A stretch of DNA of 64,000 nucleotides. It comes from Acidobacteriaceae bacterium (GTDB lineage Bacteria; Acidobacteriota; Terriglobia; Terriglobales; Acidobacteriaceae). The notes beneath the pieces were generated by a model. That model was not told the origin of the DNA. It saw only the letters and a program-made list of their open reading frames with translations, and did no database searches. The DNA lies in the NCBI GenBank assembly GCA_030037705.1, contig JASHQE010000039.1, positions 37,468 through 101,467 of the forward strand. The letters run 5' to 3'. Both the position numbers and the translations under genes were made by a program. This document shows, piece after piece, positions 5,145 to 60,232 of the stretch (its first letter is position 1; each line of letters begins with the position of its first letter).

Positions 5145-5484
5145 TCGCCGTGCGTGACCCACGCCAGAACGCACACCACGAACTGCGCACTCAGGGCCCA
5201 CTGGAGGACAAACTAACTCGTACATCTCTACGCCTCAAAAAAAATTCAGGGCAACTGAGAGTTCTGCAAGTTCAAAACTTCACTTTGTTAATACTCACTG
5301 GAGTATAACACGGTTCGATCCTGTCAAATTACCGAGGTTGGTTACCGCAGTGCAACTTTCATGTTATGTCGCGTATTTGAATGAATATAATCGGTTTATC
5401 TCAATCTAAACAGCAATTTCCTGGGGGAAATCTAACCTTTTTTGAGGCTGAAATCGAGAAAAAATAAAAAGAAGGCGAAAACTG

Positions 5485-16109: not shown

Positions 16110-17261
16110 GTGTTGACTATGCGAAGCGAGAATGGTGCCTCATCCATGGCCGATCCTCTATTGGAGTCCATATCGGCGGCGCAGCGGCTGCCCCTGGACG
16201 AAGAAACCTTCAGACGGATGATTGCAATTGAGCGCAAGCGGACTGAGCGCTCGAAGACCCCCTTTCTGCTGATGCTTCTGGAGATCACCAACCGGAAAAG
16301 CCCGGAACAGAACAAAGCGACGCTTGAAACGATCGTGACCGCGCTTATGGCCTCCAGCCGCGATACGGATATCGTCGGATGGTACCAGTCGTGCGCCATC
16401 GTTGGCGTCCTGTTTACTGGGCTGGTTGGCAGCGATAAGAACTCAATTGCCGACATGATCGTCAACCGCGTGAGCGCTACGCTTCTGGACGAATTGACCG
16501 TGGAGACCTTCAAAGAGGTCAGTATCTCTTTCCACTTCTTCCCCGACGATTGGGATCACGAAAAGCCGGGACGGCTCAGCAATCCCGCTCTGTATCCCGA
16601 CCTGGTGAAGCACGAGAAAGGCAGGCGGCCGCTGTTGCTGGCTAAGCGGCTGATCGATGTCATTGGCAGCGCGGTGATGCTCATTCTCTGCGCTCCCGTG
16701 TTTCTTGTGATCGCGCTCGCCGTCAAATTGACCTCGAAAGGGCCTGTGTTTTTCCGGCAGCAGCGCGTCGGTCAATATGGAAAGAGCTTCACGTTTTTGA
16801 AGTTTCGGTCCATGCATGTGAACAACGACAACAGCGTGCACAGGGAATATGTGAAACGGCTGATCGAAAGCAAGCCCGGTTGCGAGAACGGCACCGGCAA
16901 GAGCGTCTATAAGCTGACGAACGATAAACGGATTACGCCGCTGGGTAAGCTTCTGCGCAGGACCAGCCTCGACGAATTGCCGCAGTTCCTAAACGTTTTG
17001 TGGGGAGACATGTCGTTGGTAGGTCCTCGTCCTCCGATTCCTTATGAGCTGGCCGCTTATCAGACGTGGCATCGCAGGAGGCTTCTCGACGTAAAGCCGG
17101 GCATCACTGGCTTGTGGCAGGTTACGGGCCGCAGCAGCGTGAAGTTCGATGAGATGGTCCGTCTGGATCTCCGGTACGCCATGTCCTGGAGCCCGTGGCT
17201 CGACCTCAGGATTCTTATCCGCACACCTCTCGCGGTCATCAAGGGATCGGGCGCGTGCTGA
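16110..17261 (+). CDS. Priming sugar-1-phosphate transferase with GGDEF-like N-terminus
   Basis: Polyprenyl-phosphate glycosylphosphotransferase that loads the first sugar phosphate on undecaprenyl phosphate. The C-terminal half has the membrane entry helix (KRLIDVIGSAVMLILCAPVFLVIALAV), KFRSMHVNND, the catalytic region RRTSLDELPQFLNVLWGDMSLVGPRP, and PGITGLWQVTGRS. The N-terminal 160 residues are not the usual CoA-binding-like or multi-helix domain. They resemble a GGDEF fold (FRRMIAIERKRTERSKTPFLLML, RDTDIVGWY) with the GGDEF signature replaced, so it is probably non-catalytic and perhaps regulatory. Starts GTG 16110 or TTG 16113 follow GAGGAG; the choice is uncertain. It lies alone between a 217-base gap and the sugar trio. 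Confidence 0.9.
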   Translation: MLTMRSENGASSMADPLLESISAAQRLPLDEETFRRMIAIERKRTERSKTPFLLMLLEITNRKSPEQNKATLETIVTALMASSRDTDIVGWYQSCAIVGVLFTGLVGSDKNSIADMIVNRVSATLLDELTVETFKEVSISFHFFPDDWDHEKPGRLSNPALYPDLVKHEKGRRPLLLAKRLIDVIGSAVMLILCAPVFLVIALAVKLTSKGPVFFRQQRVGQYGKSFTFLKFRSMHVNNDNSVHREYVKRLIESKPGCENGTGKSVYKLTNDKRITPLGKLLRRTSLDELPQFLNVLWGDMSLVGPRPPIPYELAAYQTWHRRRLLDVKPGITGLWQVTGRSSVKFDEMVRLDLRYAMSWSPWLDLRILIRTPLAVIKGSGAC

Positions 17262-17367
17262 TCGCATACGCTGTTCCCGATCGAACATCGACTTCTTCGA
17301 ATGGGCAAGAACAACTCCTTACTTAGAGGTTTCTAAATTAAGTCAGCGAACGAAAGAGATAAAACAC

Positions 17368-18366
17368 ATGAACTTTGGCGTGATCGGTTATGGATATTGG
17401 GGCCCGAATATCGTGCGCAACCTGATGACCCTGGAGGGGTCACAGGTGTGCGCCATTGCGGACTTAAGCCCTACGGCGCGAGCACGCGCACAGAAGGCTT
17501 ATCCGGGAGTCACGGTGACGCCCAATGCCGCCGAAGTGATTACATCGCCGGAAATCGATGCGATCGCTGTGATCTCCCCTGTTTGGACGCACTACGAGTT
17601 GGCGAAGGCTGCGCTCGAAAACGGCAAACACGTCTTTGTCGAGAAGCCCTTCACAAGTACAGCCGCGCAGGGCGAAGAATTAATCAATCTTGCCTTGCGG
17701 AAGAACCTCAAGATCATGGTGGATCACACCTTTCTTTTTACGGGTGCGGTCCGGCGTATTGCTCAGCTCATTGATCAGGGCGAGCTAGGGAGCCTTTATT
17801 ATTACGATTCGACGCGCGTCAACCTGGGGCTCTTTCAACACGACATCAACGTCCTGTGGGATCTTGCTCCGCATGATCTGTCGATCATGGATTACCTCAT
17901 CAAGGCCAACCCGGAAGGGGTCGTCGCAACTGGAGAAGGGCATTTGAACGGGCATGAGGATGTGGCGTACATGACCATCTATTTCCCGGACCGCGTGATC
18001 GCGCACATCAACGTCAACTGGCTTTCACCTGTAAAGGTGAGAACGACGCTGATCGGCGGCGAAAAGCGGATGCTGGTGTGGAACGATCTCGAGGCTGATG
18101 AGAAGGTCAAGATCTACGACAAGGGTGTGCAGATCACCAACCAGGAAGGCGTCTACAAACTGCTAGTCAACTATCGCTCCGGCGATATGTGGTCGCCGCA
18201 GCTGGAACAGGTTGAGGCGCTGCAGCAGGAGCTTTCCTATTTCGTGGATTGCGTGTCGGCGGGGAAGGAACCATTCAACAACGGACCCGCAGGATTACGA
18301 GTCGTGAAAATGCTGGAAGCGGCCAGCCAGTCGCTCAGCAAGAAGGGCTCTCTTGTTTATTTATGA
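17368..18366 (+). CDS. wbpB: Gfo/Idh/MocA oxidoreductase, WbpB-like 3-dehydrogenase
   Basis: NAD-dependent sugar dehydrogenase with Rossmann motif GVIGYGYWGPNIVRNL, EKPFTS and the active-site Lys of the family, about 332 residues. With the next two genes (acetyltransferase, aminotransferase) it forms the WbpB-WbpD-WbpE-type set. There it oxidises C3 of UDP-GlcNAcA before transamination and acetylation to UDP-GlcNAc(3NAc)A. ATG 17368 gives the proper N-terminus; the track's start at 17149 is inside the previous gene. The stop overlaps the next ATG (ATGA), so translation is coupled. The symbol follows gene order and family, and the exact substrate is inferred. Confidence 0.85.
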   Translation: MNFGVIGYGYWGPNIVRNLMTLEGSQVCAIADLSPTARARAQKAYPGVTVTPNAAEVITSPEIDAIAVISPVWTHYELAKAALENGKHVFVEKPFTSTAAQGEELINLALRKNLKIMVDHTFLFTGAVRRIAQLIDQGELGSLYYYDSTRVNLGLFQHDINVLWDLAPHDLSIMDYLIKANPEGVVATGEGHLNGHEDVAYMTIYFPDRVIAHINVNWLSPVKVRTTLIGGEKRMLVWNDLEADEKVKIYDKGVQITNQEGVYKLLVNYRSGDMWSPQLEQVEALQQELSYFVDCVSAGKEPFNNGPAGLRVVKMLEAASQSLSKKGSLVYL

Positions 18367-18869
18367 ACTCCTATAACTGCATTGCAGAGAGCGTCAAGCT
18401 CGGTAAAGATGTAAAGCTGTCCCAATTCATCAATCTATACGGATGCGAGATCGGAGATGAGACGAAGATCGGCGCGTTCGTGGAGATCCAGAGGAATGCG
18501 ACCATCGGCAAGCGCTGCAAAATCTCAAGCCACACCTTCATCTGCGAAGGCGTGGTGATCGAGGACAACGTCTTTATCGGCCACGGCGTGATGTTCACGA
18601 ACGATTCTTATCCTCGGGCCACAGCCCGCGGCGGAAGCCTGCAGACCGAAGCGGATTGGAAGGTCGAGCCGACGGTGATCCGCAAGGGCGCTTCGGTCGG
18701 TTCGGGTGCAACGATCCTATGCAATCTCAGCGTGGGAGAAAACGCGATTGTCGGCGCGGGTAGCGTGGTCACGAAAGATGTTCCGGCCAATGCCATTGTC
18801 GCTGGTAATCCGGCTAAAGTACTTCGTTATATCGAAGAAAACGTGGAGGCAACGAATGTCCGTTCCTAG
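18363..18869 (+). CDS. wbpD: Hexapeptide N-acetyltransferase, WbpD-like
   Basis: Left-handed beta-helix acyltransferase of about 168 residues with hexapeptide repeats (VKLGKDVKL, IGAFVEIQRNATIGKRC, ASVGSGATILCNLSVGENAIVGAGSVVTKDVP) and the terminal NPAKVLRY. In the WbpB/D/E pathway it acetylates the 3-amino group of the nucleotide sugar. ATG 18363 shares bases with the preceding stop (ATGA). The track's 18249 start is an extension into the upstream gene. Its end overlaps the aminotransferase gene by 14 bases. Family and neighbours agree. Confidence 0.87.
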   Translation: MNSYNCIAESVKLGKDVKLSQFINLYGCEIGDETKIGAFVEIQRNATIGKRCKISSHTFICEGVVIEDNVFIGHGVMFTNDSYPRATARGGSLQTEADWKVEPTVIRKGASVGSGATILCNLSVGENAIVGAGSVVTKDVPANAIVAGNPAKVLRYIEENVEATNVRS

Positions 18870-20094
18870 CAATATTCCTTTCCTCGATCTGGTAACACCG
18901 CACGTGGAGCTTGAAAACGAGCTTACCGAGGTATTCCACAAGGCGCTGCACACCGCCGGTTTCATTGGCGGTCCCATGGTGGAGGGGTTCGAGAATGCTT
19001 TTGCTGCGTTCTGCAATACAAAACATGCTGCCGCTATAAGCAGCGGGACGGATGCACTGCGCTTCGCGCTTATGGCATGTGGCGTGCAAAACGGCGATGT
19101 TGTGCTGACGGTGCCGCACACGTTCATTGCTACGACAGAGGCGATCTCGCAGGCTGGGGCGTTGCCGGAGTTCATCGATATCGATGAGCAGACCTATAAC
19201 ATGTCGGTGGAACGGCTGCAGTTCTTTCTCGAAGAGCAGTGCACACGCAACAGTGCGGGTAAGCTGATCAGCGACCGGAGCGGCCGGCCGGTGACGGCGA
19301 TTGTCCCGGTTCACTTGTATGGCCAGATTGCGGATATGGATCCGATTCTCGAGCTCGCCGATGCGTATGGCCTCATGGTGATCGAAGACGCCTGCCAGGC
19401 TCACGGAGCCGAGTACTTTTCGCGCAAGGCCAATCGCTGGATGAAGGCGGGCTCGATGGGGCGCGCCGCTGCATTCAGTTTTTATCCTGGAAAGAACCTT
19501 GGAGCATGCGGCGAAGCGGGCGCTGCCACAACGAACGATGACGAGATTGCCCGCAAGATCAAGATGCTGCGCGATCACGGCCAGGCGCAAAAGTACTATC
19601 ACGATATCGAGGGCTACAACGGCCGGCTGGACGCGATTCAGGCTGGGCTGCTGCAGGTGAAGCTGGCGCACCTGGCGAAGTGGAATGCACAGCGCCGCGA
19701 ACGGGCGGAGGAGTACAACCGCCTGCTTGCCGGCACCGACGCCATCACGTGTCCCTACGAACCATCCTGGTCGCGAGCCGTATATCACCTGTATGTAATC
19801 CGTACGGCCGATCGCGATGGCATGATGAAGCACCTCAAGGACGCGGGCATTGCGACAGCAATTCACTATCCGATTCCGCTGCACATGCAGAGGGCCTACT
19901 CCTGGCTCAATTACAAAGCAGAGGATTTTCCGGTTGCGTCGCGCGTTGCCGCCGAGATTGTGTCCTTGCCGATGTTTCCGCAACTGACGGCAGAGCAACA
20001 GGAGCGCGTGGCCCAGGAGACACTTGCCTTTGCCTCCAAACCTGCTCTCCAACCCGCGGTGAACGCAACAGCACTCGCAGAAGTTACCGCATAA
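18856..20094 (+). CDS. wbpE: DegT/DnrJ/EryC1 aminotransferase, WbpE-like
   Basis: PLP-dependent sugar aminotransferase of about 412 residues. It opens IPFLDLVTPHVELENELTEV, has the SSGTDALRFAL cofactor region, EDACQAHGAEY, and the PLP-binding Lys in AFSFYPGKNLGACGE. It would install the 3-amino group on the 3-keto uronic acid made by the dehydrogenase at 17368. ATG 18856 follows GGAGG with six-base spacing; the track's 18706 start is spurious. It forms a tightly overlapping operon with the two preceding genes. A dTDP- or UDP-3-keto-6-deoxysugar substrate is the alternative. Confidence 0.9.
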   Translation: MSVPSNIPFLDLVTPHVELENELTEVFHKALHTAGFIGGPMVEGFENAFAAFCNTKHAAAISSGTDALRFALMACGVQNGDVVLTVPHTFIATTEAISQAGALPEFIDIDEQTYNMSVERLQFFLEEQCTRNSAGKLISDRSGRPVTAIVPVHLYGQIADMDPILELADAYGLMVIEDACQAHGAEYFSRKANRWMKAGSMGRAAAFSFYPGKNLGACGEAGAATTNDDEIARKIKMLRDHGQAQKYYHDIEGYNGRLDAIQAGLLQVKLAHLAKWNAQRRERAEEYNRLLAGTDAITCPYEPSWSRAVYHLYVIRTADRDGMMKHLKDAGIATAIHYPIPLHMQRAYSWLNYKAEDFPVASRVAAEIVSLPMFPQLTAEQQERVAQETLAFASKPALQPAVNATALAEVTA

Positions 20095-33154: not shown

Positions 33155-34981
33155 ATGTACGAGACAGAAGCGAATCGGCAAAAAGAATCGCGCGACCAGA
33201 TTCCGTCTGACGTTCTTGCGTGCTTTGCAGAACTCAAGGGAGTGGTAGCGCGCCGCACGGTGCTTCCATGGAGCGAGCACTGCACCGAGTGCGTCTGGCC
33301 CAGCTGTTATACCACCTGCGATCTGTATAGCGCGCGTGAAGACGGCCGGTGCCGTCGATTCGTGGATGGCATGGTTCGTATTGATTGTCCGGAATCTTTG
33401 AATGCTTATCTTGTGAAGGTCACCTTCAAGCGGTGGGCAAAGTTGTGGACGCCCGGAAATATCCGGCTTCGCTCCTTCGCGAGCGCGCTGCGCGCAGAAA
33501 GCCGCGATTACCGCATTGGATCAACGCTCAACGCATTGCCTTTGCCCAAGACGATTCGCACGCTCGCGACCGGAAAGCGATATAGCCTGAAGAAGAGGCT
33601 TGCGTATCGCGCACATGCCGACACAACACTGCCCAATTTTTTCATGCTGGAATGCTACAACCCAGGCGCTGACGCTGTCAGTCTTTCGTTCACTATTCGT
33701 TCCGTGGGCGAGATGGTGACGATCCCGTTTCAGAAGCTGATCGAGCTTGCTCCCGGTTTTCATCGCGTGCGTATTCCATGCAATGAGATCGCGGCGATCG
33801 TTGATCTGCATCACCCGTTCAACGTAGAGATTATTCCCAATGGCGAGGCGGACGGAATCACTCTGATTTTTGGATTGACTGATTTTGTTCAGGAGATGCC
33901 GCGACCGACGGCAAACGAAAAGACCGGCACAGACAATACGCAGCCGAAGATCAAGTGCGTTATCTGGGATCTCGATAATACGCTATGGGACGGAATCCTG
34001 ATCGAGGACGGGGCTGAGAAGCTTAGACTGAAGCCGGGAATCCGCGAAACGCTTCAGGCGCTGGATGAGCGCGGCATTCTTCTTTCGGTTGCGAGCAAGA
34101 ATAATCGTGACGAGGCTTGGGCAGTCCTCAAGCAGATGAGGCTCGATGAGTTGTTTCTGGCTCCGCAGATCTCCTGGGGCCCGAAGAGCGAGGCCATTCG
34201 CGAGATTGCGCATCGGCTGAATATTGGACTTGATACGTTTCTCTTCGTGGATGACTCTACCTTCGAGCGGCAGGAAGTAGCTTCCGCTCTTCCGGAGGTG
34301 CGGGTTCTCGACGCCCTGAGATTCGAAGAGATACTGGACCTCGAGGAGTGCAAGGTGCCTGCAACGGCGGAGAGCCGCGAGCGGCGCAAGATGTATCAGG
34401 TGGAGGCGGAAAGACAAAACCGCGCCTCTGGTTTTGCTGGCGACTACGTGGCGTTTTTGCGCGACTGCGAGATCCGCATCAACATTCTCCCGCTTGCCGA
34501 CGAAAACCTGGAGCGAGTGCATGAACTGACGCAGCGCACCAACCAGATGAATTTCTCAGGCAACCGGTATGACCGGGATAAACTTCGCCAGGTGCTCGCG
34601 ACACCGTGGCTTGATGCGTATGTGCTCGAGGTGGAAGACCGGTTCGGCAGCTACGGCATGGTGGGCTTCTGCATTGTAGACAGCCGGGAGCCGTTGATGA
34701 CCGATCTGATGTTCAGTTGCCGCATTCAGTCGAAGCGCGTAGAGCACGCATTTCTGGCTTGGTTGATTCAACGGTATAGAGGCACGCCCGGCAAAGATAT
34801 GTGGGCCAGCTACCGCAAGACGGAGAAGAATGCCCCTTCGGGGAGGGTGTTTGCGGATATTGGCATGGAAGAGGTTGAGATCGTGAACGGGGTTTCGCGG
34901 TTGGTGTTCCGCAAAGACGCAGTGATTCCGGACGACGGCGTTGTGACGATCAATGCGCAAACGCCGGCGGCCGTTGCGTAA
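33155..34981 (+). CDS. fkbH: FkbH-type HAD-IIIC protein with Cys-rich N-terminus
   Basis: 608 residues. The C-terminal part is FkbH: HAD motif VIWDLDNTLWDGI (about 269-281), SVASKNN, FVDDSTFERQEV, then the GNAT-like section with RTNQMNFSGNRYD. FkbH proteins take 1,3-bisphosphoglycerate and load a glyceryl-derived unit on an acyl carrier protein. The first 250 residues are unusual: a cysteine cluster (CTECVWPSCYTTC...GRC) that might bind metal, then a beta-rich region that could be carbohydrate-binding-like. A second FkbH at 37752 precedes a carrier protein gene. It is 36 bases after asnB and three before the deacetylase gene. Attachment of a glyceryl or lactyl group to the EPS is inferred. 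Confidence 0.88.
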   Translation: MYETEANRQKESRDQIPSDVLACFAELKGVVARRTVLPWSEHCTECVWPSCYTTCDLYSAREDGRCRRFVDGMVRIDCPESLNAYLVKVTFKRWAKLWTPGNIRLRSFASALRAESRDYRIGSTLNALPLPKTIRTLATGKRYSLKKRLAYRAHADTTLPNFFMLECYNPGADAVSLSFTIRSVGEMVTIPFQKLIELAPGFHRVRIPCNEIAAIVDLHHPFNVEIIPNGEADGITLIFGLTDFVQEMPRPTANEKTGTDNTQPKIKCVIWDLDNTLWDGILIEDGAEKLRLKPGIRETLQALDERGILLSVASKNNRDEAWAVLKQMRLDELFLAPQISWGPKSEAIREIAHRLNIGLDTFLFVDDSTFERQEVASALPEVRVLDALRFEEILDLEECKVPATAESRERRKMYQVEAERQNRASGFAGDYVAFLRDCEIRINILPLADENLERVHELTQRTNQMNFSGNRYDRDKLRQVLATPWLDAYVLEVEDRFGSYGMVGFCIVDSREPLMTDLMFSCRIQSKRVEHAFLAWLIQRYRGTPGKDMWASYRKTEKNAPSGRVFADIGMEEVEIVNGVSRLVFRKDAVIPDDGVVTINAQTPAAVA

Positions 34982-34984
34982 GTC

Positions 34985-35734
34985 ATGGGCCTGCGTTCGC
35001 AGCTAGGTAAGATCAGGGCAACGTACCTCAGCTCACGGTGCAGGCGGACCGTTGCACTCGGGAACCTGGGGCCGATCGTAACCTTTACCTTCGATGATTT
35101 TCCAAGGACGGCGCTGACCGCAGGAGCCACGATCCTTGAGCGGTTCGGTGCGCGGGCTACGTATTATGTTGCGATGGGATTGATGGATAGCGAAAATCGT
35201 CTCGGCGAGCAGTTTCACCGCGACGATCTCCATACTCTGGCCGGGCGCGGGCATGAGATAGCCCTTCACGGATTCAAGCACCTGTCGGCCAGGAGGACCC
35301 CGGTAGAGAAATTTGCAGACGATGTGGCCGAGGGCAGACGGGCAATTCAGGAGTGCATTCCGGCAGGCGCATCGAATAACTTCGCGTATCCGTACGGCGA
35401 AGCGACTTTAGCAACCAAGCACCGGCTTGGCCCAAATTTAGCAAGCTCGCGAGGAACAATTGGGGGACTCAACGGACCCGAAGTGGATCTGAATCTGCTG
35501 CGCGCGAATTCCTTGTACGGGGACGAAGAACAAGTGGGGCGGGCGCGCCGGCTCATTCTCAGAAATCAGGTAGAAAAGTCCTGGTTAATCTTCTATTCGC
35601 ACGACGTTGCGGAAAAGCCTTCGCCTTACGGCTGCACACCTTTGCTGCTGCAAGAGACCGTTGCCTTCGCCGTGGCTCAGGGCGCACGGTTGATGACCGT
35701 CGCCGATGTGGTGACGAAACTGCAAGCGGTGTAG
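34985..35734 (+). CDS. NodB-type polysaccharide deacetylase
   Basis: 249-residue carbohydrate esterase 4 family protein: metal and catalytic motif TFTFDDFPRT, the His motif ALHGFKHLSA, and YPYGEAT. The C-terminal SHDV contributes the last motif. It removes N-acetyl groups from sugar residues. No signal peptide is seen, so it probably acts in the cytoplasm on precursors, which is less usual than for exported members. It starts three bases after the FkbH gene. Confidence 0.88.
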   Translation: MGLRSQLGKIRATYLSSRCRRTVALGNLGPIVTFTFDDFPRTALTAGATILERFGARATYYVAMGLMDSENRLGEQFHRDDLHTLAGRGHEIALHGFKHLSARRTPVEKFADDVAEGRRAIQECIPAGASNNFAYPYGEATLATKHRLGPNLASSRGTIGGLNGPEVDLNLLRANSLYGDEEQVGRARRLILRNQVEKSWLIFYSHDVAEKPSPYGCTPLLLQETVAFAVAQGARLMTVADVVTKLQAV

Positions 35735-35784
35735 AAGCGCAGGAACAGATCATTTCAACCGCTGCCCTATTTTCAGACTTGTTG

Positions 35785-35812
35785 TTGTAGTTCAGCCTTG
35801 TTCAATTAGGAT
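35785..35812 (+). promoter_or_regulatory. Weak promoter candidate before the epimerase
   Basis: TTGTAG (35785-35790), a 16-base spacer and TAGGAT (35807-35812). It would give an almost leaderless transcript for the ATG at 35822, which has no clear ribosome site. Both boxes are imperfect. Confidence 0.25.
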
Positions 35813-35821
35813 CGTTGCTCT

Positions 35822-36931
35822 ATGCACATTCTTCATGTAGTGGGAGCCAGACCGAATTTCATGAAAGCGGCACCGGTGCTTCGGGCGCTCGGAAAGCGAA
35901 TGCATGTTCGCCAGAGCCTGGTTCATACGGGACAGCACTATGACGTGAATATGTCCGATGTGTTCTTTCGTCAACTCGGCATTCCCACTCCGGATGTGAA
36001 TTTAGGAGTTGGTTCGGGGAGCCATGCGCGACAGACCGCTGAGATCATGAACGGGCTGGAAGGCGTGATGCTGGAGCGCAAGCCGGACGTCGTTCTGGTG
36101 TATGGAGATGTGAACTCGACCGTGGCGGCTGCACTGGTGTGCGCCAAGCTGCTCATTACCGTAGCTCATGTCGAAGCGGGGCTGCGTTCGTTCGACAGGA
36201 CAATGCCGGAAGAAGTGAACCGCATCGTCACCGACCAGCTTGCCGATATTCTGCTCACTCCATCCGAAGATGGCGATCGCAATCTTCGCGCTGAAGGCAT
36301 CGCGGCCGAAAAGATTCATCGAGTCGGAAACGTCATGATTGACTCGCTGGTAGAGCTTTTGCCGGCTACGGCCGACGTTCCCAGGAATGGCTTAGCGGAT
36401 CAGTACGCTCTGGTTACGCTGCACCGGCCGTCGAATGTCGACGACAGCGCAACGCTCAATGGAATTATCGAGATGCTCGTGGAACTGAGCGCCGCTATCC
36501 AGGTCGTTTTTCCCGTGCATCCCCGAACGCGCCAGCGCATGGAGACGCTCACAGCCGATTTCTCTCGCCTTCACTTGCTTGAGCCGCTGCCGTACATCGA
36601 ATTTCTAGCTCTGCAAAAAAACGCGACCGTCGTGATCACTGACTCCGGAGGAATTCAGGAAGAAACAACGTATCTTGGTGTGCCCTGCCTGACCATGCGC
36701 GATAACACCGAGCGCCCGATTACAGTGGAGATGGGCACTAACATCCTGATTGGGCAGAGCGGGCGCAGGCTGCTCGACGAGGTACAACGAATTCTTCGCG
36801 GCGAGGCAAAGGTGGGAGTGGTTCCGCCTCTATGGGACGGCTATACTGGCGAAAGAATCGCAGAAATCCTCTGCGGCGCAGGCGCGGATTTTACTGGGGC
36901 CTCTGCAGGCGTGCGGATGGCCGGTCGCTGA
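35822..36931 (+). CDS. wecB: UDP-HexNAc 2-epimerase (WecB/WbpI family)
   Basis: Non-hydrolysing 2-epimerase of 369 residues: GARPNFMKAAPVLRAL at the start, VHTGQHYDVNMSD, VYGDVNSTVAAAL, HVEAGLRSFDRTMPEEVNR, the active-site TDSGGIQEETTYLG, and TERPITVEMGTN. WecB makes UDP-ManNAc from UDP-GlcNAc, while WbpI homologues act on UDP-GlcNAc(3NAc)A. Because WbpA, B, D and E-like enzymes are also here, the second role is quite possible, so the symbol is provisional. The gene is separated by 87 bases from the deacetylase and starts a new group. Confidence 0.93.
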   Translation: MHILHVVGARPNFMKAAPVLRALGKRMHVRQSLVHTGQHYDVNMSDVFFRQLGIPTPDVNLGVGSGSHARQTAEIMNGLEGVMLERKPDVVLVYGDVNSTVAAALVCAKLLITVAHVEAGLRSFDRTMPEEVNRIVTDQLADILLTPSEDGDRNLRAEGIAAEKIHRVGNVMIDSLVELLPATADVPRNGLADQYALVTLHRPSNVDDSATLNGIIEMLVELSAAIQVVFPVHPRTRQRMETLTADFSRLHLLEPLPYIEFLALQKNATVVITDSGGIQEETTYLGVPCLTMRDNTERPITVEMGTNILIGQSGRRLLDEVQRILRGEAKVGVVPPLWDGYTGERIAEILCGAGADFTGASAGVRMAGR

Positions 36932-36997
36932 TTGGCATTCGCTCTGCGCACAATCGGATTCCAGAGTCTTGTTCCCTAACGTCCAAGCAAATTCCCT

Positions 36998-37720
36998 ATG
37001 ACTACCGGTAAATCCCGCATCCGCTTTGAAGATCCGCTTACCTATTTAAGCCGGTTCATCTCCAGGCTCTACAGTTGGTGGATTTCTACGATGTATCCCT
37101 TCGCGTCTCGCGGAAAAAAGCTCACGTTTCATTTTCCATTCCGATTGGATAGGAGGGAAGCTAACCAGATCAGCCTGGGAAATTCGATCACGATTGGAAA
37201 GGATGCCTGGCTGAATACCGTGGGTGAGAACCACGGTGAGGTAAAGATCGTGATCGAAGATCATTGCAATATTGGTGCGCGCGATATTTTTTCCGCCAGA
37301 AATTCGATTCATATTGAGCGCGACGTGATGATTGCTACATCCGTTTTGATCCAGGATCACCACCATGCCTATGAAGACATCACGCTGCCGATTAGTCATC
37401 AAGGAGTAACACCCGGGGGCCGCATCCGGATTGGGCAGGGCTCGTGGATTGGCCAGGGTGCAGCCATCGTCTGCAATGAAGGAGAACTGGTGATCGGCGC
37501 GAACTGCGTAATTGGATCAAATGCACTGGTGACCAGAAGCTACCCGCCGAACTCGGTGATCATCGGAAATCCGGCGAGGCTTGCAAGGCAGTTTAACCCC
37601 GCTAAGGGAGCCTGGGTTGGCGGCGAGGCCGGACGTACCATTGCGGCGGATGCGCCCCGTCCGAGTGCTGGCGGAAAAACGATCGATGCACTGCAAAACG
37701 CAGTGCCGGCTGCCGATTGA
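36998..37720 (+). CDS. Hexapeptide acyltransferase (WcaF/CysE-like)
   Basis: 240-residue left-handed beta-helix acyltransferase: ISLGNSITIGKDAWLNT, VIEDHCNIGARDIFSARNSIHIERDVMIATSVLIQDHHHAYED with the catalytic His region, IGQGSWIGQGAAIVCNEGELVIGANCVIGSNALVTRSYPPNSVIIGNPARLARQ. It probably O-acetylates an EPS sugar. The C-terminal 30 residues are a disordered extension. It lies 66 bases after the epimerase and 31 before the second FkbH gene. Confidence 0.88.
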   Translation: MTTGKSRIRFEDPLTYLSRFISRLYSWWISTMYPFASRGKKLTFHFPFRLDRREANQISLGNSITIGKDAWLNTVGENHGEVKIVIEDHCNIGARDIFSARNSIHIERDVMIATSVLIQDHHHAYEDITLPISHQGVTPGGRIRIGQGSWIGQGAAIVCNEGELVIGANCVIGSNALVTRSYPPNSVIIGNPARLARQFNPAKGAWVGGEAGRTIAADAPRPSAGGKTIDALQNAVPAAD

Positions 37721-37751
37721 CAGGGAAACGATTCTTCGATTCAGGTCAGAA

Positions 37752-39482
37752 ATGAAGTTAGTTGAAGCGCTCAATATCACCAGAGCAATGCAGCAACGGA
37801 AGCTTCCTATGCTTCGCTGCTTTCTTGCGACCGGATTCAACGCTCTGCACCTGAAGACGTTTCTTGCCGCGGAACTGAGCCTTGTCTTTGCTGAACAGAA
37901 GATCGAAGTGCTGGACGGACTTTACGGAGACCTGCTCGGCAACATTGACCGGCTGGCCAAGAGCGATTGCGAAATCGGTGTCGTGCTGATCGAATGGTCC
38001 GATCTCGATCCGCGGCTCGGGATTCGCAGCACGGCGCGATGGACTGCGAACGAACTCAAGAACATCGTGACGACGGCGAAGGCGCGGGCTGCGCAGATGC
38101 AAAGAACGATTGAAGAAGCCAGCCAACACGCACCCGTGGTGGCATGCCTGCCGACGTTGCCGCTTCTGCCCTTCTCATTTACTCCGAGCTGCCAATCCGG
38201 TTCATGGGATGTGGAACTCCGCGGCATCATGCAGTCTCTAAGCTCTGTACTCGCTGAGAGTGGTCAGGTTCGCGTTCTTAACGCACAGCGTCTCGATCTG
38301 GATTCCCCACTTAAAGATCGCCACGATATTGAATCGGAAGGACTCAGCGGGTTTCCGTATCGCCTGCCCCATGCGTCAGCCGTAGCCGGTTTGATTGCTC
38401 GTCTTGCGCAGCGGCCGGTTCCAAAGAAGGGACTGATTACGGATCTCGACGAGACGGTGTGGAGCGGCATTCTGGGCGAGAATGGCGTCGACGGAATCTC
38501 CTGGGATCTGGAACACCATAGCCAGATGCATGCTCTCTATCAGCGGTTTCTGGGCGCATTGATGAGCGAAGGTGTGATGGTGGCAGTTGCCAGTAAGAAC
38601 GATCCTGAGCTGGTGGAGCAGGCTTTGCAGCGCAGCGATCTTGCTGTTTCTGCAGGAGGCATTTTCCCCATCGAGGCCAATTGGAAGCCTAAGTCGCAGT
38701 CGGTCTCGCGTATTCTCGAAACCTGGAATGTAGGAGCGGATTCAGTGGTGTTCATTGACGATAGCCCACTTGAACTGGCGGAAGTAAAGGCCGCACATCC
38801 GCAGATCGAATGCCTGCAGTTTCCAACCGGAGACAGCGCAGCGATTTACGAGCTCATCGTCAGGCTGCGTGACCTATTCGGCAGGAGTGCGGTCTCTGAA
38901 GAGGATTCGATTCGCGTCGAGAGCATCCGGAGGTCGCAGGCCGGCATGGCCTTGCGCGGGACACCCGCACTGGAGGAATTTCTCGAACAGGCGGAAGCCG
39001 AGGTCAGTTTTAACCTCTCCAAAACGCCGCTTGATCCGCGAGCCTTCGATCTTGTCAACAAGACGAACCAGTTCAACCTGAACGGCAACCGCTATACAGA
39101 AGCGAACTGGAAGAAATTTCTTGACGATCCGGCAAGCTTTCTGATGGTCGTTTCGTATCAGGATAAGTTTGGGCCGCTGGGAAAAATTGCGGTGGTCGCC
39201 GGTGGGTACAGAGAAAGAAAGCTGATGGTCCACACGTGGGTCATGAGCTGCCGGGCGTTTTCGCGCCAGATTGAATACCGGTGCCTGGCCGAGCTGGTTG
39301 CGCGATTTGATTTCGACGAGATTGAGTTTGCTTATCAACAGACGGAGAGGAACGGGCCTCTCCGTGAATTCCTCAGCGAGATATTGAAGACACCTCCCTC
39401 GCCGAACTGCGTGATGGCCCGGAGGGAGATGGAAGACCGCTTGGAATTTGTGATGAAGCCGCAGGAGGTTAGTAATGGATGA
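37752..39482 (+). CDS. fkbH: FkbH-type HAD-IIIC protein, second copy
   Basis: About 576 residues. The N-terminal 200 residues match FkbH proteins (RKLPMLRCFLATGFNALHLKTFLAAEL, CEIGVVLIEWSDLDPRLG). The HAD domain has ITDLDETVWSGILGENG, VAVASKNDPELV and VVFIDDSPLELAEV; the GNAT-like end has NKTNQFNLNGNRYTE. This is the canonical layout, unlike the first copy. It overlaps the acyl carrier protein gene by eight bases, so it is probably the enzyme that loads that carrier with a glycerate-derived unit. ATG 37752 follows CAGGTCAG; the track's 37581 start extends into the upstream gene. Confidence 0.9.
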   Translation: MKLVEALNITRAMQQRKLPMLRCFLATGFNALHLKTFLAAELSLVFAEQKIEVLDGLYGDLLGNIDRLAKSDCEIGVVLIEWSDLDPRLGIRSTARWTANELKNIVTTAKARAAQMQRTIEEASQHAPVVACLPTLPLLPFSFTPSCQSGSWDVELRGIMQSLSSVLAESGQVRVLNAQRLDLDSPLKDRHDIESEGLSGFPYRLPHASAVAGLIARLAQRPVPKKGLITDLDETVWSGILGENGVDGISWDLEHHSQMHALYQRFLGALMSEGVMVAVASKNDPELVEQALQRSDLAVSAGGIFPIEANWKPKSQSVSRILETWNVGADSVVFIDDSPLELAEVKAAHPQIECLQFPTGDSAAIYELIVRLRDLFGRSAVSEEDSIRVESIRRSQAGMALRGTPALEEFLEQAEAEVSFNLSKTPLDPRAFDLVNKTNQFNLNGNRYTEANWKKFLDDPASFLMVVSYQDKFGPLGKIAVVAGGYRERKLMVHTWVMSCRAFSRQIEYRCLAELVARFDFDEIEFAYQQTERNGPLREFLSEILKTPPSPNCVMARREMEDRLEFVMKPQEVSNG

Positions 39483-39723
39483 GCAGCAGGCGCGCCTGGC
39501 GAACTGCTTTCTGGCAGTTTTTCCGGATTTGAGCGCAGACGAGATCAGCAGCGCAACATCGGCCACCGTGCCAAGCTGGGATTCTGTGGCCGGAGTTACG
39601 CTTCTGGCAGTCGTTGAGGAGGAGTTTGGCATCGCTCTCGAAACGGACGACCTGTCGCGGTTTGATTCGTTTCAAGATTTTTTAACGTATCTCCGGCAAA
39701 CGGAAGTTGGCGAGCGGAGCTGA
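39475..39723 (+). CDS. Acyl carrier protein of the FkbH pathway
   Basis: 82-residue carrier protein. Ser37 in PSWDSVAGVTLL is the expected phosphopantetheine site, followed by the acidic helix (VVEEEFGIALE) and DLSRFDSFQDFLTYL. Overlap of eight bases with the FkbH gene and the ribosome site AGGAGG inside that gene show tight coupling. It probably carries a glyceryl-type three-carbon unit for transfer to EPS. The transferase is not identified; the neighbouring acyltransferase is a candidate. Confidence 0.9.
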   Translation: MDEQQARLANCFLAVFPDLSADEISSATSATVPSWDSVAGVTLLAVVEEEFGIALETDDLSRFDSFQDFLTYLRQTEVGERS

Positions 39724-43003: not shown

Positions 43004-43531
43004 ATGCGTTTTTGTGAAACTAAGCTATCCGGCGTTTATGCAATTTACCTCGAACCTCATTTGGACGAGCGGGGATTCTTCGCGCGGTTGTGGTGCCACC
43101 GGGAGTTTAAAGAGAACGGCTTGAATCCAAATCTGGTGCAGTGCAATATGTCGTTCAATGCCAAGCGAGGGACGCTGCGCGGGATGCATTACCAGGCGGC
43201 GCCTCATGCTGAGGCGAAATTGATTCGATGCACAAAGGGAGCGATTTACGATGTTGCCGTTGACCTTCGGCCATCGTCGCCGACATATAAACAGTGGGTT
43301 GCTCAGACGCTGACGGCGGAAAACCGGACGATGCTGTATGTTCCGGAGGGTTGCGGCCACGGTTTCCTAACGCTCGAAGATGAGAGCGAGGTCTTCTACC
43401 AGATGTCGGAGTACTATGCGCCGGAAGCCGCACGCGGGTTCCGATGGAATGATCCAGCGTTCGGGATCTCGTGGCCAGAGAAGGTAGAGGTTATTTCAGA
43501 GAGAGATGCTACCTACCCTGAGTTCGCGTGA
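43004..43531 (+). CDS. dTDP-4-dehydrorhamnose 3,5-epimerase-like protein
   Basis: 175-residue cupin of the RfbC family: GVYAIYLEPHLDERGFFARLW, the catalytic His in RGMHYQAAP, and MSEYYAPEAARGFRWNDPAFGI. RfbC epimerises 4-keto-6-deoxy nucleotide sugars at C3 and C5. Here the neighbours suggest a CDP-sugar or C-methylated sugar rather than dTDP-rhamnose, as no RfbA, B or D genes are present. It starts a new group after the terminator and overlaps the next gene by 26 bases. The symbol is left blank because the substrate is doubtful. Confidence 0.88.
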   Translation: MRFCETKLSGVYAIYLEPHLDERGFFARLWCHREFKENGLNPNLVQCNMSFNAKRGTLRGMHYQAAPHAEAKLIRCTKGAIYDVAVDLRPSSPTYKQWVAQTLTAENRTMLYVPEGCGHGFLTLEDESEVFYQMSEYYAPEAARGFRWNDPAFGISWPEKVEVISERDATYPEFA

Positions 43532-44861
43532 TTCTGTGAGCCTCTTGAAGGAGATGGATGGCAATGACGCTGTGGAGCTCGGCGTCACGCTGCACAATTT
43601 CGCCGCGAGTTTATACCCGATCTGCCGTAGCATCACTGGCGACGGAATTCGGAAGACGCTGGGCATGATTGGAGAGCGGATTCCGCTTGAGCTTCGCGAG
43701 GTGCCCACCGGGACACCGGTCTTTGACTGGACCGTACCCAAAGAGTGGAATATTCGCGATGCGTATATCAAAACTGCTGACGGCCGGCGCATCGTCGATT
43801 TTCATCAGTGCAATCTGCATGTGATGAATTACAGTACGCCGGTTCATGCGACGTTGCCGCTCAAAGAGATCAGGCCGCATCTGTTCACGCTTCCCGATCA
43901 TCCGGATTGGATACCGTATCGGACCTCTTATTACAAGGAGGACTGGGGTTTTTGCTTATCGCATCGTCAGTTGCTGCAACTTGAAGACGGGGAATATGAG
44001 GTGTGCATCGATTCCTCGCTCGATGAGGGGCATTTGACCTATGGAGAATGCTATTTGCCGGGGCAGTCAAAAGAGGAGGTTTTGATCTCATGCCACGCCT
44101 GCCATCCGTCTCTGGCAAATGACAACCTATCCGGGCTATCGGTGGCGACGTTTCTGGCGCAATCGCTGTCCCGGCGGGACCTGCGCTATTCGTACCGGTT
44201 CCTGTTTCTTCCCGGCACGATTGGAGCCATCAGTTGGCTGGCGCAAAACCGAGAGAGCGCCAGCCGTATTCGGCACGGACTGGTCTTGACGTGTATCGGA
44301 GACGCGGGTGGATTCCACTATAAAAAGAGCCGGCGCGGCGATGCTGAGATCGACCGCGCCGTTGCGTGCATTTTGAGAGATTTTGGCGGACCCTCCGCGA
44401 TACTGGAGTTTTCGCCTTACGGATACGATGAGCGGCAATATTGCTCGCCCGGCTTCAATCTTCCAGTGGGTTGCCTGATGCGGAGCGTGTGGGGAACGTT
44501 CCCGGAGTATCATACGTCGGCCGACAATCTGGAGTTCATTCAATCGGATTCTCTAGCTGAGTCGCTCCGCGTGTGCGCCGCGATTGTTGATGTGCTTGAG
44601 GGAAATCGCAGATATGTGAATCAAAGCCCTTATTGCGAACCGCAGCTTGGGAAACGAGGTCTTTATAAGTCGACCGGCGGGACGGCAATCGGCGAGGAGA
44701 TCAATGCCCGGCTGTGGGTGCTGAATTTCTCTGACGGCGAGCACTCGCTGCTCGATATCGCCGAACGCTCGGGTATCTCATTTGCAGCTATAAGAGAGGC
44801 TGCATCGTTGCTCCATGATGCAGGCTTGCTCATCGCCGTTTCAGATGACGATGCCGCGTGA
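43506..44861 (+). CDS. DUF4910/DUF2172 aminopeptidase-like protein
   Basis: 451 residues. The body resembles M28-type zinc aminopeptidases, with candidate ligands in SCHACHPSLANDNLSGL and EYHTSADNLEF; the C-terminus (LLDIAERSGISFAAIREAASLLHDAG) looks like a winged-helix. This family is found in polysaccharide loci near C-methyl and CDP-sugar genes; its substrate is not established and may be an amino-acylated or N-acylated sugar. It overlaps the RfbC-like gene. ATG 43554 is an alternative start, directly after AAGGAG. Confidence 0.83.
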   Translation: MLPTLSSRDSVSLLKEMDGNDAVELGVTLHNFAASLYPICRSITGDGIRKTLGMIGERIPLELREVPTGTPVFDWTVPKEWNIRDAYIKTADGRRIVDFHQCNLHVMNYSTPVHATLPLKEIRPHLFTLPDHPDWIPYRTSYYKEDWGFCLSHRQLLQLEDGEYEVCIDSSLDEGHLTYGECYLPGQSKEEVLISCHACHPSLANDNLSGLSVATFLAQSLSRRDLRYSYRFLFLPGTIGAISWLAQNRESASRIRHGLVLTCIGDAGGFHYKKSRRGDAEIDRAVACILRDFGGPSAILEFSPYGYDERQYCSPGFNLPVGCLMRSVWGTFPEYHTSADNLEFIQSDSLAESLRVCAAIVDVLEGNRRYVNQSPYCEPQLGKRGLYKSTGGTAIGEEINARLWVLNFSDGEHSLLDIAERSGISFAAIREAASLLHDAGLLIAVSDDDAA

Positions 44862-47403: not shown

Positions 47404-48255
47404 ATGAAGGTAGTGCTGTTTTGCGGCGGAGCGGGCATGCGGCTTCGCGGATACGCGGACGACGTGCCCAAGCCGATGGTGCAGATCGGAACGCGGCCGA
47501 TCATGTGGCATCTGATGAAGTACTATGCCCACTTCGGGCACAAGGATTTCATCCTGTGCCTGGGATACAAAGGCAACTGCATCAAGGATTATTTTCTGCA
47601 CTACGATGAATCGGTTTCGAACGATTTCGTCTGGTCGCACGGCGGAAAAAAGGTGGAGTTCCTGAGTCGTGACATGGATGACTGGACGATCACGTTCGTG
47701 GAGACCGGCGCGAATGCCAATATCGGGCAGCGGTTGAAAGCGATCGAGCCGTATATCCAGGACGACGAGATGTTCCTCGCCAACTATGGAGACGGTCTGA
47801 GCGATCTGCCGCTTCCCACCCTGCTTGAAAAGTTCCGAGGGAGCAATGCCATTGCGTCGATGCTGCTGGTTCAGCCAACGGCGAGCTTCGACATCGTCTA
47901 TACGCAATCGGAGGGCGCGGTAAAGGAGATTTGTCCGATCACGCGCACAGATTTCTGGATCAACGGCGGATTTTTCGCCATGCGCCGCGAGATCTTCGAA
48001 TACATCCAACCGGGTGAAGAGCTGATCCGCGAGCCGTTCCAGCGTTTGATCGACAAGCAGGCGCTGCTGGCGTACAAGTACTCCGGCTTCTGGCAGTGCA
48101 TGGATACGTTCAAGGACAAGCAGCATCTGGAAGAACTCAACCAGGGCGCGGCGCCATGGAAGGTGTGGAGTTCTGTTGCGAACGCACCGGCTGACGGAGA
48201 ATGCAAGCCCGGGCAGCAGAGCGAGCCGGCATTGGCGGTGTCTACGCGTCTATGA
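47404..48255 (+). CDS. rfbF: Glucose-1-phosphate cytidylyltransferase-like (RfbF)
   Basis: 283-residue sugar nucleotidyltransferase: VVLFCGGAGMRLRGYADDVPKPMVQIG, DFILCLGYKGNCIKDYF, MFLANYGDGLSDL and FWINGGFFAMRREIFEYI. RfbF makes CDP-glucose, the entry to CDP-deoxysugars. The protein is about 25 residues longer than Salmonella RfbF because of a C-terminal tail. ATGA overlap with the next gene shows coupling. The usual partner, CDP-glucose 4,6-dehydratase, is not in the window. Confidence 0.9.
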   Translation: MKVVLFCGGAGMRLRGYADDVPKPMVQIGTRPIMWHLMKYYAHFGHKDFILCLGYKGNCIKDYFLHYDESVSNDFVWSHGGKKVEFLSRDMDDWTITFVETGANANIGQRLKAIEPYIQDDEMFLANYGDGLSDLPLPTLLEKFRGSNAIASMLLVQPTASFDIVYTQSEGAVKEICPITRTDFWINGGFFAMRREIFEYIQPGEELIREPFQRLIDKQALLAYKYSGFWQCMDTFKDKQHLEELNQGAAPWKVWSSVANAPADGECKPGQQSEPALAVSTRL

Positions 48256-48902
48256 TGCCTTTGAACCTGAGCACACGCGCTGACGCAGGCTTGAAGATTC
48301 TATGCATGGGGGCGCACTCGGATGATATCGAGATCGGCTGCGGAGGGACGATCCTCACCCTGGCCGAGCGGTATCCGGGATGCGAATTTCACTGGGTTGT
48401 TTTCACCGCGCGCGGAGTGCGGGAGACGGAAGCCAAGCGCGCTGCGGAACTGTTTGCAGGATCGCGTTTACGAGGGACCTATCTCAAAACATTGCGCGAT
48501 GGCTTTCTGCCTTACGACGGCGACGAGGTGAAGGCCGTCTTTGAGGATGAGCTGAAGCCGATAAATCCCGATCTCATCTTCACGCATAATAACAAGGATG
48601 CGCATCAAGATCATCGGCTGCTCTCGGAACTAACCTGGAACACTTTCCGCAATCACCTGATTCTCGAGTACGAGATTCCGAAGTATGACGGCGACCTGGG
48701 ACGGCCCAGCGTTTTTGTGCCGCTGAAATGCGAGACCTGCGATGCGAAGGTTGCCCATCTGATGGATGCCTTTGGATCGCAGCGGAACAAGCGCTGGTTC
48801 GAGCCGGAGACCTTTCTTGCTCTGATGCGGCTGCGGGGAATGGAATGCGTCGCGGAGAGCGGTTACGCCGAGGCTTTCTACTCGCGCAAACTGGTGTTGT
48901 AA
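48252..48902 (+). CDS. PIG-L family deacetylase
   Basis: About 216-residue zinc-dependent N-deacetylase: metal motif GAHSDDIEIGCGGT and HNNKDAHQDHRLLSE. Such proteins deacetylate GlcNAc-type residues in lipids, mycothiol-like thiols and sugars. ATG 48252 overlaps the RfbF stop; the track's 48201 start adds 17 residues inside rfbF. It is the last gene of the CDP-sugar group, 68 bases before the flippase. Confidence 0.9.
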   Translation: MMPLNLSTRADAGLKILCMGAHSDDIEIGCGGTILTLAERYPGCEFHWVVFTARGVRETEAKRAAELFAGSRLRGTYLKTLRDGFLPYDGDEVKAVFEDELKPINPDLIFTHNNKDAHQDHRLLSELTWNTFRNHLILEYEIPKYDGDLGRPSVFVPLKCETCDAKVAHLMDAFGSQRNKRWFEPETFLALMRLRGMECVAESGYAEAFYSRKLVL

Positions 48903-56036: not shown

Positions 56037-57383
56037 GTGACGTTGACTTCTTTAGATCGTACCGCTGAACTCAAACATCGGATTGAAACACGCGAGGCCC
56101 GGATCGGCATCGTTGGCATGGGCTATGTCGGGCTGCCGCTCGCTCTTTTGTTTAGCGAACAGCGGTTCAAGGTGGCAGGTTTTGATATCGATGATCGCAA
56201 AGTGGAGAAGCTGAATCAGGGGGGATCGTATATCGTGCGCATCCCCGGCACCGAAATCCAGGTGGCGCAGCAGAACGGATTTCGCGCGACTGCCGATTAT
56301 AGCGAGATTGCGCAGATGGATGTCGTGATCATCTGCGTTCCCACACCGCTTGATGAATATCACGAACCCGATCTTAGTTATGTTTCGGGAACGGTGCGCA
56401 GCATCGCACCGCATCTCCATGAGGGACAACTCGTGGTGCTGGAGAGCACAACCTATCCTGGAACAACGGAAGAGATCGTCGTTCCTCTGCTCGAACAGGG
56501 AAACCCAGCCGGTCTACGCGTGGCCCGAGATGCGGTAAGTAACGGTTTCTATGTGGCCTTTTCTCCTGAGCGGGAAGATCCCGGCAACGACACGGTAGCG
56601 CGGCGAGATATTCCGAAGGTTGTGGGCGGTTGCGGGCCGGCGGCGCTCGAGCTGGCGTGCGCAGTTTATTCCTCCATCTTCAATCGCACGGTTCCTGTTT
56701 CCTCGCCGGCCGCCGCCGAGATGACCAAGCTGCTTGAGAACATTTATCGTTGCGTCAACATCGCATTGGTGAATGAGCTGAAGCAGTTATGCCTGCGCAT
56801 GGGAATCGATCTGTTCGAAGTCATCAATGCGGCCAAGACCAAGCCGTTTGGATTTCAGGCGTTCTATCCGGGTCCCGGCCTGGGCGGCCACTGTATTCCT
56901 ATCGATCCGTTTTACCTGTCCTGGAAGGCCAAGCAGTTTGATTTTCACACGCGCTTTATCGAGCTGGCCGGCGAAGTGAATAACGCGATGCCTTACTTTG
57001 TTGTGGAGAACGTGATTGAGGCATTGAGCCAGCATCACAAATCTCTGCGCGGATCGCGGATTCTGATTCTCGGTATGGCCTACAAGCGCGACATCGACGA
57101 TCTGCGCGAGTCGCCTTCATTGACCATCATCGAGTTGCTGCAAAAACGCGGAGCGATCGTCGCATATAACGATCCGTTCTTTCCGACGGTCGGACAGGGC
57201 CGCAAATATGCGCTGAATATGACCAGCACACCCCTGGATCGAATCCCAGAGTTCGATTGTGTGCTGATCGCAACCGATCACTCGCAATATGACTACCAAA
57301 ACATCGTGAAGCAGGCTAATCTGGTTGTGGATACGCGCGATGCAACCCGAGGCATTCACTCCGACAAGATCGTAAGGTGCTGA
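56037..57383 (+). CDS. wbpA: UDP-GlcNAc 6-dehydrogenase (WbpA-like)
   Basis: 448-residue nucleotide sugar dehydrogenase: RIGIVGMGYVGLPLALLFSE, VPTPLDEYHEPDLSYV, VLESTTYPGTTEE and the catalytic Cys in GPGLGGHCIPIDPFYLSWK. The SPERED..DPGN region fits the WbpA/WecC branch rather than UDP-glucose dehydrogenases. It would oxidise UDP-GlcNAc to UDP-GlcNAcA, the substrate for the WbpB/D/E-type trio at 17-20 kb. GTG 56037 follows GGGGGAG. It is 205 bases downstream of the GT4 gene and seems to have its own promoter region. Confidence 0.92.
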   Translation: MTLTSLDRTAELKHRIETREARIGIVGMGYVGLPLALLFSEQRFKVAGFDIDDRKVEKLNQGGSYIVRIPGTEIQVAQQNGFRATADYSEIAQMDVVIICVPTPLDEYHEPDLSYVSGTVRSIAPHLHEGQLVVLESTTYPGTTEEIVVPLLEQGNPAGLRVARDAVSNGFYVAFSPEREDPGNDTVARRDIPKVVGGCGPAALELACAVYSSIFNRTVPVSSPAAAEMTKLLENIYRCVNIALVNELKQLCLRMGIDLFEVINAAKTKPFGFQAFYPGPGLGGHCIPIDPFYLSWKAKQFDFHTRFIELAGEVNNAMPYFVVENVIEALSQHHKSLRGSRILILGMAYKRDIDDLRESPSLTIIELLQKRGAIVAYNDPFFPTVGQGRKYALNMTSTPLDRIPEFDCVLIATDHSQYDYQNIVKQANLVVDTRDATRGIHSDKIVRC

Positions 57384-60161: not shown

Positions 60162-60232
60162 GAAACGAACGAGGGCGAACTATGCAAGTGCCCGTTAGCT
60201 TTGTTCATACACGAGAGTGGAAGGGGAAAATC

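Follow-up and report, generated by a model that had tools for sequence, protein, structure and literature searches.

The window analyzed here is a 64,000-nucleotide stretch of an Acidobacteriaceae genome (assembly GCA_030037705.1, contig JASHQE010000039.1, positions 37,468 to 101,467), whose exopolysaccharide (EPS) locus encodes two FkbH proteins, FkbH1 and FkbH2, together with a polysaccharide deacetylase, a hexapeptide acyltransferase and an acyl carrier protein (ACP). FkbH enzymes are known as parts of the assembly lines for polyketides and peptides. The original prediction for this DNA, made from the letters alone, was that both FkbH proteins load the one carrier, from which a three-carbon acyl group is moved to a sugar without a polyketide synthase (PKS). 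Both proteins are indeed FkbH proteins, FkbH1 scoring 255 bits and FkbH2 226 bits against the curated cut-off (TIGR01686, 146.65 bits), and profile searches and an ACP alignment confirmed the hexapeptide acyltransferase and the ACP within the EPS locus. That prediction did not, however, link FkbH1 with the deacetylase gene that touches it, which we found to be the most conserved neighbor of FkbH1. The features of this pair are as follows.

33155-34981, + strand: FkbH1, 608 amino acids, with a Cys-rich and carbohydrate-binding module (CBM)-like N-terminus, a HAD-IIIC domain and a GNAT-fold C-terminus
33155-33907, + strand: N-terminal region of FkbH1 (residues 1-251), a Cys cluster at residues 43-66 followed by a CBM-like beta-sandwich
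34718-34720, + strand: codon of FkbH1 Cys522 (SCR motif), a candidate acyl-thioester residue
34985-35734, + strand: NodB/HfsH-type polysaccharide deacetylase (PF01522, 56.6 bits), 3 nt after FkbH1

FkbH1 shares 46-60% identity over its entire length with its orthologs, and its named near relatives are mostly from metagenome-assembled genomes (MAGs) of soil Acidobacteriota. The HAD residues D272, D274, T276, S314, K344, D366 and D367 are invariant among 15 orthologs, as is Cys522, which is equivalent to the invariant C501 of the FkbH2 alignment. The acyl-enzyme residue of the FkbH family is a cysteine, as reported for OzmB. In the N-terminal region, C43, C46, C51, C55 and C66 are invariant in the ortholog alignment, and Pfam and PDB sequence searches returned no family for it. 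The AlphaFold2 model of this region (pLDDT 84) had its best Foldseek matches to CBM11 (E 1.5e-4), and those to CBM11, CBM61 and CBM30 had template modeling (TM) scores of 0.40-0.55; the resemblance of the beta-sandwich to carbohydrate-binding modules is suggestive only. In a fold search with the model of the whole protein (pLDDT 81.5; pTM 0.45, which leaves interdomain placement unsure), the HAD domain was similar to BF1531 and MDP-1, and the C-terminal domain to amine-acting GNAT N-acyltransferases such as SpeG.

The metal motifs of the deacetylase are intact (TFDD at residue 35 and HGFKH, an HxxxH motif, at residue 95). Its best NCBIfam match was HfsH, at 167.7 bits and under the cut-off of 400, and from its sequence we regard it as a relative of HfsH and not HfsH itself. 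Its N-terminus (MGLRSQLGKIRATYLSSRCRR) has no hydrophobic stretch as judged by eye, and no export signal is obvious.

One GTDB genome scan and two phylum- or class-level searches yielded 20 distinct loci with an FkbH1-type gene and usable flanks, the window included, which span Acidobacteriota, Gemmatimonadota and Prevotella. Two loci on the same contigs as others (L125 and L126, as L062 and L064) and two cut by contig ends (L066 and L075) were left out of the counts; L054, L055 and L065 have little sequence on one flank. A CE4 deacetylase gene directly adjoins the FkbH1-type gene in 18 of the 20 loci, and at L077, from the same genus, the overlapping neighbor is a YdjC-family gene (PF04794, 157 bits). 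A sugar de-N-acetylase, from at least two enzyme families, is therefore found directly beside the FkbH1-type gene in 19/20 loci, and at L063 the CE4 gene is one gene away, with a methyltransferase gene between. The paired genes are separated by 3-4 nt or overlap. The deacetylase gene is upstream of the FkbH1-type gene in Prevotella and downstream in Acidobacteriota, suggesting that the pairing arose repeatedly or survived rearrangement, and the deacetylases of the two Prevotella loci are only about 25% identical to that of the window. At two Gemmatimonadota loci (L060 and L061) the pair adjoins nickel-transport or DNA-repair genes, with no EPS genes beside it. No CE4 gene was found within 60 nt of the other FkbH genes examined, nine of which have one within about 1.3 kb; a Fisher test on deacetylase adjacency gave p of about 1e-15, a value that treats related loci as independent and is readable only as "not chance". 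AsnB was also considered as a conserved neighbor of FkbH1 and rejected, as it is not kept in the relatives. On plasmids outside the known phyla, no match to full-length FkbH1 reached 80% coverage. The open-access literature that we searched contained no report joining FkbH with a polysaccharide deacetylase.

This pairing suggests a swap in which an acetyl group is removed and glycerate is added. A different reading of the same gene order is that the two enzymes act on different residues of one polymer, the deacetylase leaving free amines that make the EPS cationic and adhesive, as with HfsH, and FkbH1 being an independent decoration enzyme or just a sugar or acyl phosphatase. Deacetylation by HfsH alone influences adhesion (PMC8449245), and decoration genes cluster in EPS loci. 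We nevertheless consider this reading improbable, since the close spacing of the pair is kept in unrelated contexts, some of them without other EPS genes, and partner deacetylases of different families fit a joint pathway better.

The distribution of carrier genes also bears on how FkbH1 might act. In an ACP profile search of the flanks, no ACP was detected near the FkbH1-type gene in any of the 19 loci other than the window, while the same profile detected a close ACP for 29 of 40 other long FkbHs. Of 19 genomes, 12 have no FkbH gene besides the FkbH1-type one; in one of these it comes as two fragments, and the MAGs are incomplete. It is conceivable that the swap depends on a carrier all the same, with FkbH1 making glyceryl-ACP on AcpP, or on the ACP of FkbH2, and FkbH1 or another acyltransferase then acylating the deacetylated sugar. 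All characterized FkbHs use a carrier (PMC3625739, PMC7489565), FkbH1 is sister to carrier-using short polyketide FkbHs, AcpP is encoded in every genome, and the ACP of the window lies 4.5 kb from FkbH1. However, other FkbH families keep a dedicated ACP adjacent where FkbH1-type genes do not, and the fused CBM-like region suggests direct glycan handling by FkbH1, so that we regard a carrier-dependent swap as unlikely, if far from negligible.

Downstream of the deacetylase gene lie the following features, which end with FkbH2 and the ACP.

35822-36931, + strand: UDP-GlcNAc 2-epimerase-type gene
36998-37720, + strand: hexapeptide acyltransferase, WbbJ-like (NF007240, 81.8 bits, under its cut-off), 31 nt before FkbH2
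37752-39482, + strand: FkbH2, 576 amino acids, with a BF1531-type N-terminus, a HAD-IIIC domain and a C-terminal domain with the SCR Cys
39475-39723, + strand: discrete ACP, 82 amino acids, with Ser37 in a WDSV attachment motif (PF00550, 20.6 bits)

The longest open reading frame of FkbH2 begins at 37581, upstream of the real start; homologs and spacing favor the ATG at 37752. An alignment of 16 sequences showed that the catalytic residues and the C-terminal Cys are kept, and the FkbH2 family profile matched BF1531 (3slr) over profile positions 12-392 (1.5e-89), which gives FkbH2 the long architecture reported for tetronate FkbHs. Although the ACP scores just under the PF00550 cut-off of 20.8 bits, it aligns with solved ACPs (phmmer), and its gene overlaps the FkbH2 stop by 8 nt. 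On these sequence grounds we assign the ACP to FkbH2 and class the two as an ordinary long FkbH/discrete-ACP unit of the tetronate type.

FkbH1 and FkbH2 proved to be only distantly related. In a maximum-likelihood tree built from the catalytic domains of 63 FkbHs, the FkbH1 clade had 19 members (support 96/92) and short polyketide-type FkbHs as its sister, and FkbH2 grouped far from it in a clade of long FkbHs, most of them ACP-linked. The N-terminal domains of the two proteins differ as well, and the tree ruled out that they are a duplicated pair. That both nonetheless load the single ACP for the hexapeptide transferase, as originally predicted, would agree with the position of all these genes on one strand within 6.6 kb, and the tetromadurin cluster also has two FkbHs (PMC7489565). 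In that cluster, though, each FkbH owns an ACP; here the two FkbHs are from distant clades with three genes between them, and relatives of FkbH1 live without FkbH2 and the ACP, a deacetylase gene always being next to them or one gene away. We give this shared-carrier arrangement very little credence. Of the predicted FkbH pair with one carrier, the genes are real, and the sharing is contradicted by the deep clade split and by the overlap of the ACP with FkbH2. That a three-carbon acyl group is transferred to a sugar with no PKS involved is well supported as a general reading and holds for FkbH2 and its ACP; the mechanism proposed for FkbH1, loading of a carrier for the hexapeptide enzyme, does not agree with orthologs that have neither an ACP nor another FkbH nearby and whose coupling is with a de-N-acetylase. 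We find it about evenly poised between right and wrong that the EPS locus in the window instead has two modules for three-carbon acylation that work independently, module A (FkbH1 and the deacetylase) and module B (FkbH2 and the ACP).

The hexapeptide gene is the likeliest user of the FkbH2-ACP product, by a link that is weak because the gene is not conserved. As a conserved partner of FkbH2 it was rejected, since among near relatives only L084 has a hexapeptide gene upstream, and this is distantly similar: a PglD-like gene that overlaps the FkbH gene, with the ACP gene following. FkbH-ACP units in relatives adjoin varied acyltransferases, namely MBOAT (L088 and L108), GNAT (L080, L090 and L104) and the PglD-like hexapeptide protein of L084, so that glyceryl-ACP looks like a common currency for different acyltransferases.

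Other genes also accompany FkbH-ACP units. A MaoC-dehydratase/SDR fusion is encoded beside them at L078 (9581-11050), L084 (9182-10363) and L104 (10002-11462), and could convert glyceryl-ACP to pyruvyl- or lactyl-ACP; a similar set of FkbH, MaoC and SDR is present on a Rahnella plasmid (L129). A small glyoxalase-fold gene (PF13669, methylmalonyl-CoA epimerase-like) lies beside the unit at L081 (9424-10158), L096 (7690-8118) and L108 (9375-9851), and its product is possibly a C2 epimerase of glyceryl-ACP that gives the L-glyceryl form. Plasmid pPfer1 of Paludibaculum fermentans (L127, 12001-15660) has an FkbH2 ortholog with 45% identity in a plasmid EPS locus; no recognizable ACP is beside it, a glycosyltransferase (GT2) and a polysaccharide deacetylase follow, and GNAT and MBOAT genes are near.

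The window takes up the end of a 101-kb contig in a genome of 5.1 Mb that is about 85% complete. Profile searches placed the EPS locus on the + strand at about 9.6-57 kb of the window, where it encodes NusG-like, Wza, Wzz, tyrosine kinase, sugar transferase and WbpB/D/E-like proteins, glycosyltransferases, Wzy, AsnB, WbpI/WecB-like proteins, Wzx and a UDP-sugar dehydrogenase. FkbH1 and FkbH2 are the only FkbH genes in the genome, which also encodes AcpS, able to activate the ACP. Pfam found no ketosynthase domain in the EPS locus. The original prediction had named a PKS gene just outside the window as evidence against it, and the genome, at its stated completeness, had none by a PF00109 search, the only ketosynthase-like matches being a FabF-sized gene and a weak match of 397 aa, both on other contigs. 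The WbpA/B/D/E/I-like set (17149-20094, 35822-36931 and 56037-57383) suggests that the EPS contains a 2,3-diacetamido uronic acid, a possible acceptor of the N-acyl swap. Adjoining the EPS locus, a protein at 3225-5225 on the - strand has three HYDIN/ASPM/Cep192-type Ig-like repeats; downstream of the locus, a secreted protein at 60182-60973 has a PEP-CTERM-like C-terminus.

A further gene of the locus might also act on amides.

43506-44861, + strand: DUF4910/DUF2172/HTH_47 aminopeptidase-like protein (Pfam), a possible second amide-cleaving enzyme

We take this protein to be probably of the Cj1295 family. A PIG-L gene is located at 48201-48902, and by sequence the locus thus has three candidate amide-cleaving enzymes: the NodB/HfsH-type deacetylase, the protein at 43506-44861 and the PIG-L protein.

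In the mechanism that we propose for module A, the deacetylase would act on a cytoplasmic intermediate, probably the lipid-linked repeat, and strip one of its amino sugars of the N-acetyl group; the CBM-like region would hold FkbH1 on the glycan. Cys522 would take phosphoglyceryl from 1,3-bisphosphoglycerate, the HAD domain would remove the phosphate, and the GNAT-fold domain would acylate the freed amine with the resulting glyceroyl group, probably without a dedicated ACP. In module B, FkbH2 would make glyceryl-ACP, as happens in tetronate clusters, from which the hexapeptide transferase or some other acyltransferase would acylate a different position on a sugar; this would be the conventional route, with glycerate probably the three-carbon group. 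Comparison of sequences showed the separate clades, the intact catalytic residues, the domain architecture, the deacetylase adjacency and the lack of a nearby ACP in FkbH1 relatives; the 1,3-bisphosphoglycerate donor, the glyceroyl group, the amine acceptor and direct transfer are inferred for FkbH1. We tentatively propose, at somewhat less than an even chance, that FkbH1 represents a carrier-free FkbH branch, combining CBM-like, phosphatase and GNAT-fold parts, which transfers glyceryl from glycolytic 1,3-bisphosphoglycerate straight to a deacetylase-freed sugar amine and so yields N-glyceroyl amino sugars in the EPS, across Acidobacteriota, Gemmatimonadota and Bacteroidota.

Several points weigh against the mechanism proposed for the two modules. 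Every characterized FkbH passes its acyl group to a carrier protein; for FkbH1 this may be the housekeeping AcpP or, in the window, the ACP that belongs to FkbH2. Gene order indicates cooperation, and neither a reaction order nor a shared acceptor. The CBM-like match, at the TM scores given above, is weak, and the FkbH1 model, at its pTM, leaves the arrangement of the domains unsure. An acyl phosphate other than 1,3-bisphosphoglycerate could be the donor, and the relatives are mostly MAGs of few related lineages, so that the adjacency counts are not independent.

The new element is the deacetylase-paired and apparently carrier-less FkbH branch, whereas FkbH2 and its ACP are conventional. If this branch is as proposed, it would offer a candidate for an enzyme still missing from the synthesis of N-glyceroyl amino sugars. 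Such sugars occur in the Pragia O-antigen and, methylated, in Campylobacter flagellin, and no enzyme is assigned to their acyl-transfer step in the open-access literature searched. FkbH1 and the deacetylase would also form a two-gene cassette for expression and testing, and a route to glycans with defined N-acyl groups.

Comparison with known systems places the two modules differently. BF1531 of Bacteroides fragilis resembles FkbH2 over the N-terminal and HAD domains, nearly the full solved construct, and FkbH1 in the HAD domain only. Both FkbHs of the window are like those that act with a discrete ACP in tetronate and methoxymalonate systems (Tmn16, AbyA2-AbyA3, Mad7-Mad8 and OzmB) in the HAD-IIIC domain, the C-terminal domain and the catalytic residues. 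FkbH moves glyceryl from 1,3-bisphosphoglycerate to an ACP (PMC7489565), and its homolog Tmn16 makes glyceryl-S-ACP in vitro, as cited in PMC3625739. The 622-aa AbyA2 adjoins the 78-aa ACP AbyA3 (PMC3625739), and FkbH2 shares this long form with an adjacent ACP of about 80 aa. Unlike these systems, the genome of the window is without a PKS, and FkbH1 differs from them in its N-terminal region, its deacetylase partner and the lack of a dedicated ACP in its relatives.

Gellan-type glyceryl transferase genes were considered as a precedent, and the search of open-access literature gave no such gene. In Nod factor synthesis, the NodB deacetylase exposes an amine that its partner NodA acylates; the logic is alike, and NodA is of another family and moves long fatty acyl groups from ACP. 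Caulobacter HfsK has been proposed as the acyltransferase for the amines that HfsH exposes (PMC5362036), and the window resembles this system in the kind of deacetylase (HfsH being a cytosolic CE4 enzyme) and in a GNAT-fold acyltransferase; unlike FkbH1, HfsK lacks a HAD domain, and its gene lies apart from hfsH. A D-glyceroyl amide occurs on QuiNAc4N in the O-antigen of Pragia fontium (PMC10609480). The nearest precedent is the proposed exchange of acetyl for methylglyceroyl in Campylobacter. Cj1295 of C. jejuni is proposed to cleave an acetamido group of flagellar pseudaminic acid, which 2,3-di-O-methylglyceroyl can replace (PMC3068675), and the FkbH gene cj1302 lies in the same flagellar glycan region (PMC7099621). 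To call the modification route little described, as was done at first, is fair, although this precedent exists. The proposed replacement of an acetamido by a (methyl)glyceroyl amide and the presence of an FkbH gene in the locus are features common to C. jejuni and the window, whereas the deacylase Cj1295 is of an aminopeptidase-like family and the partner of FkbH1 is a CE4 enzyme.

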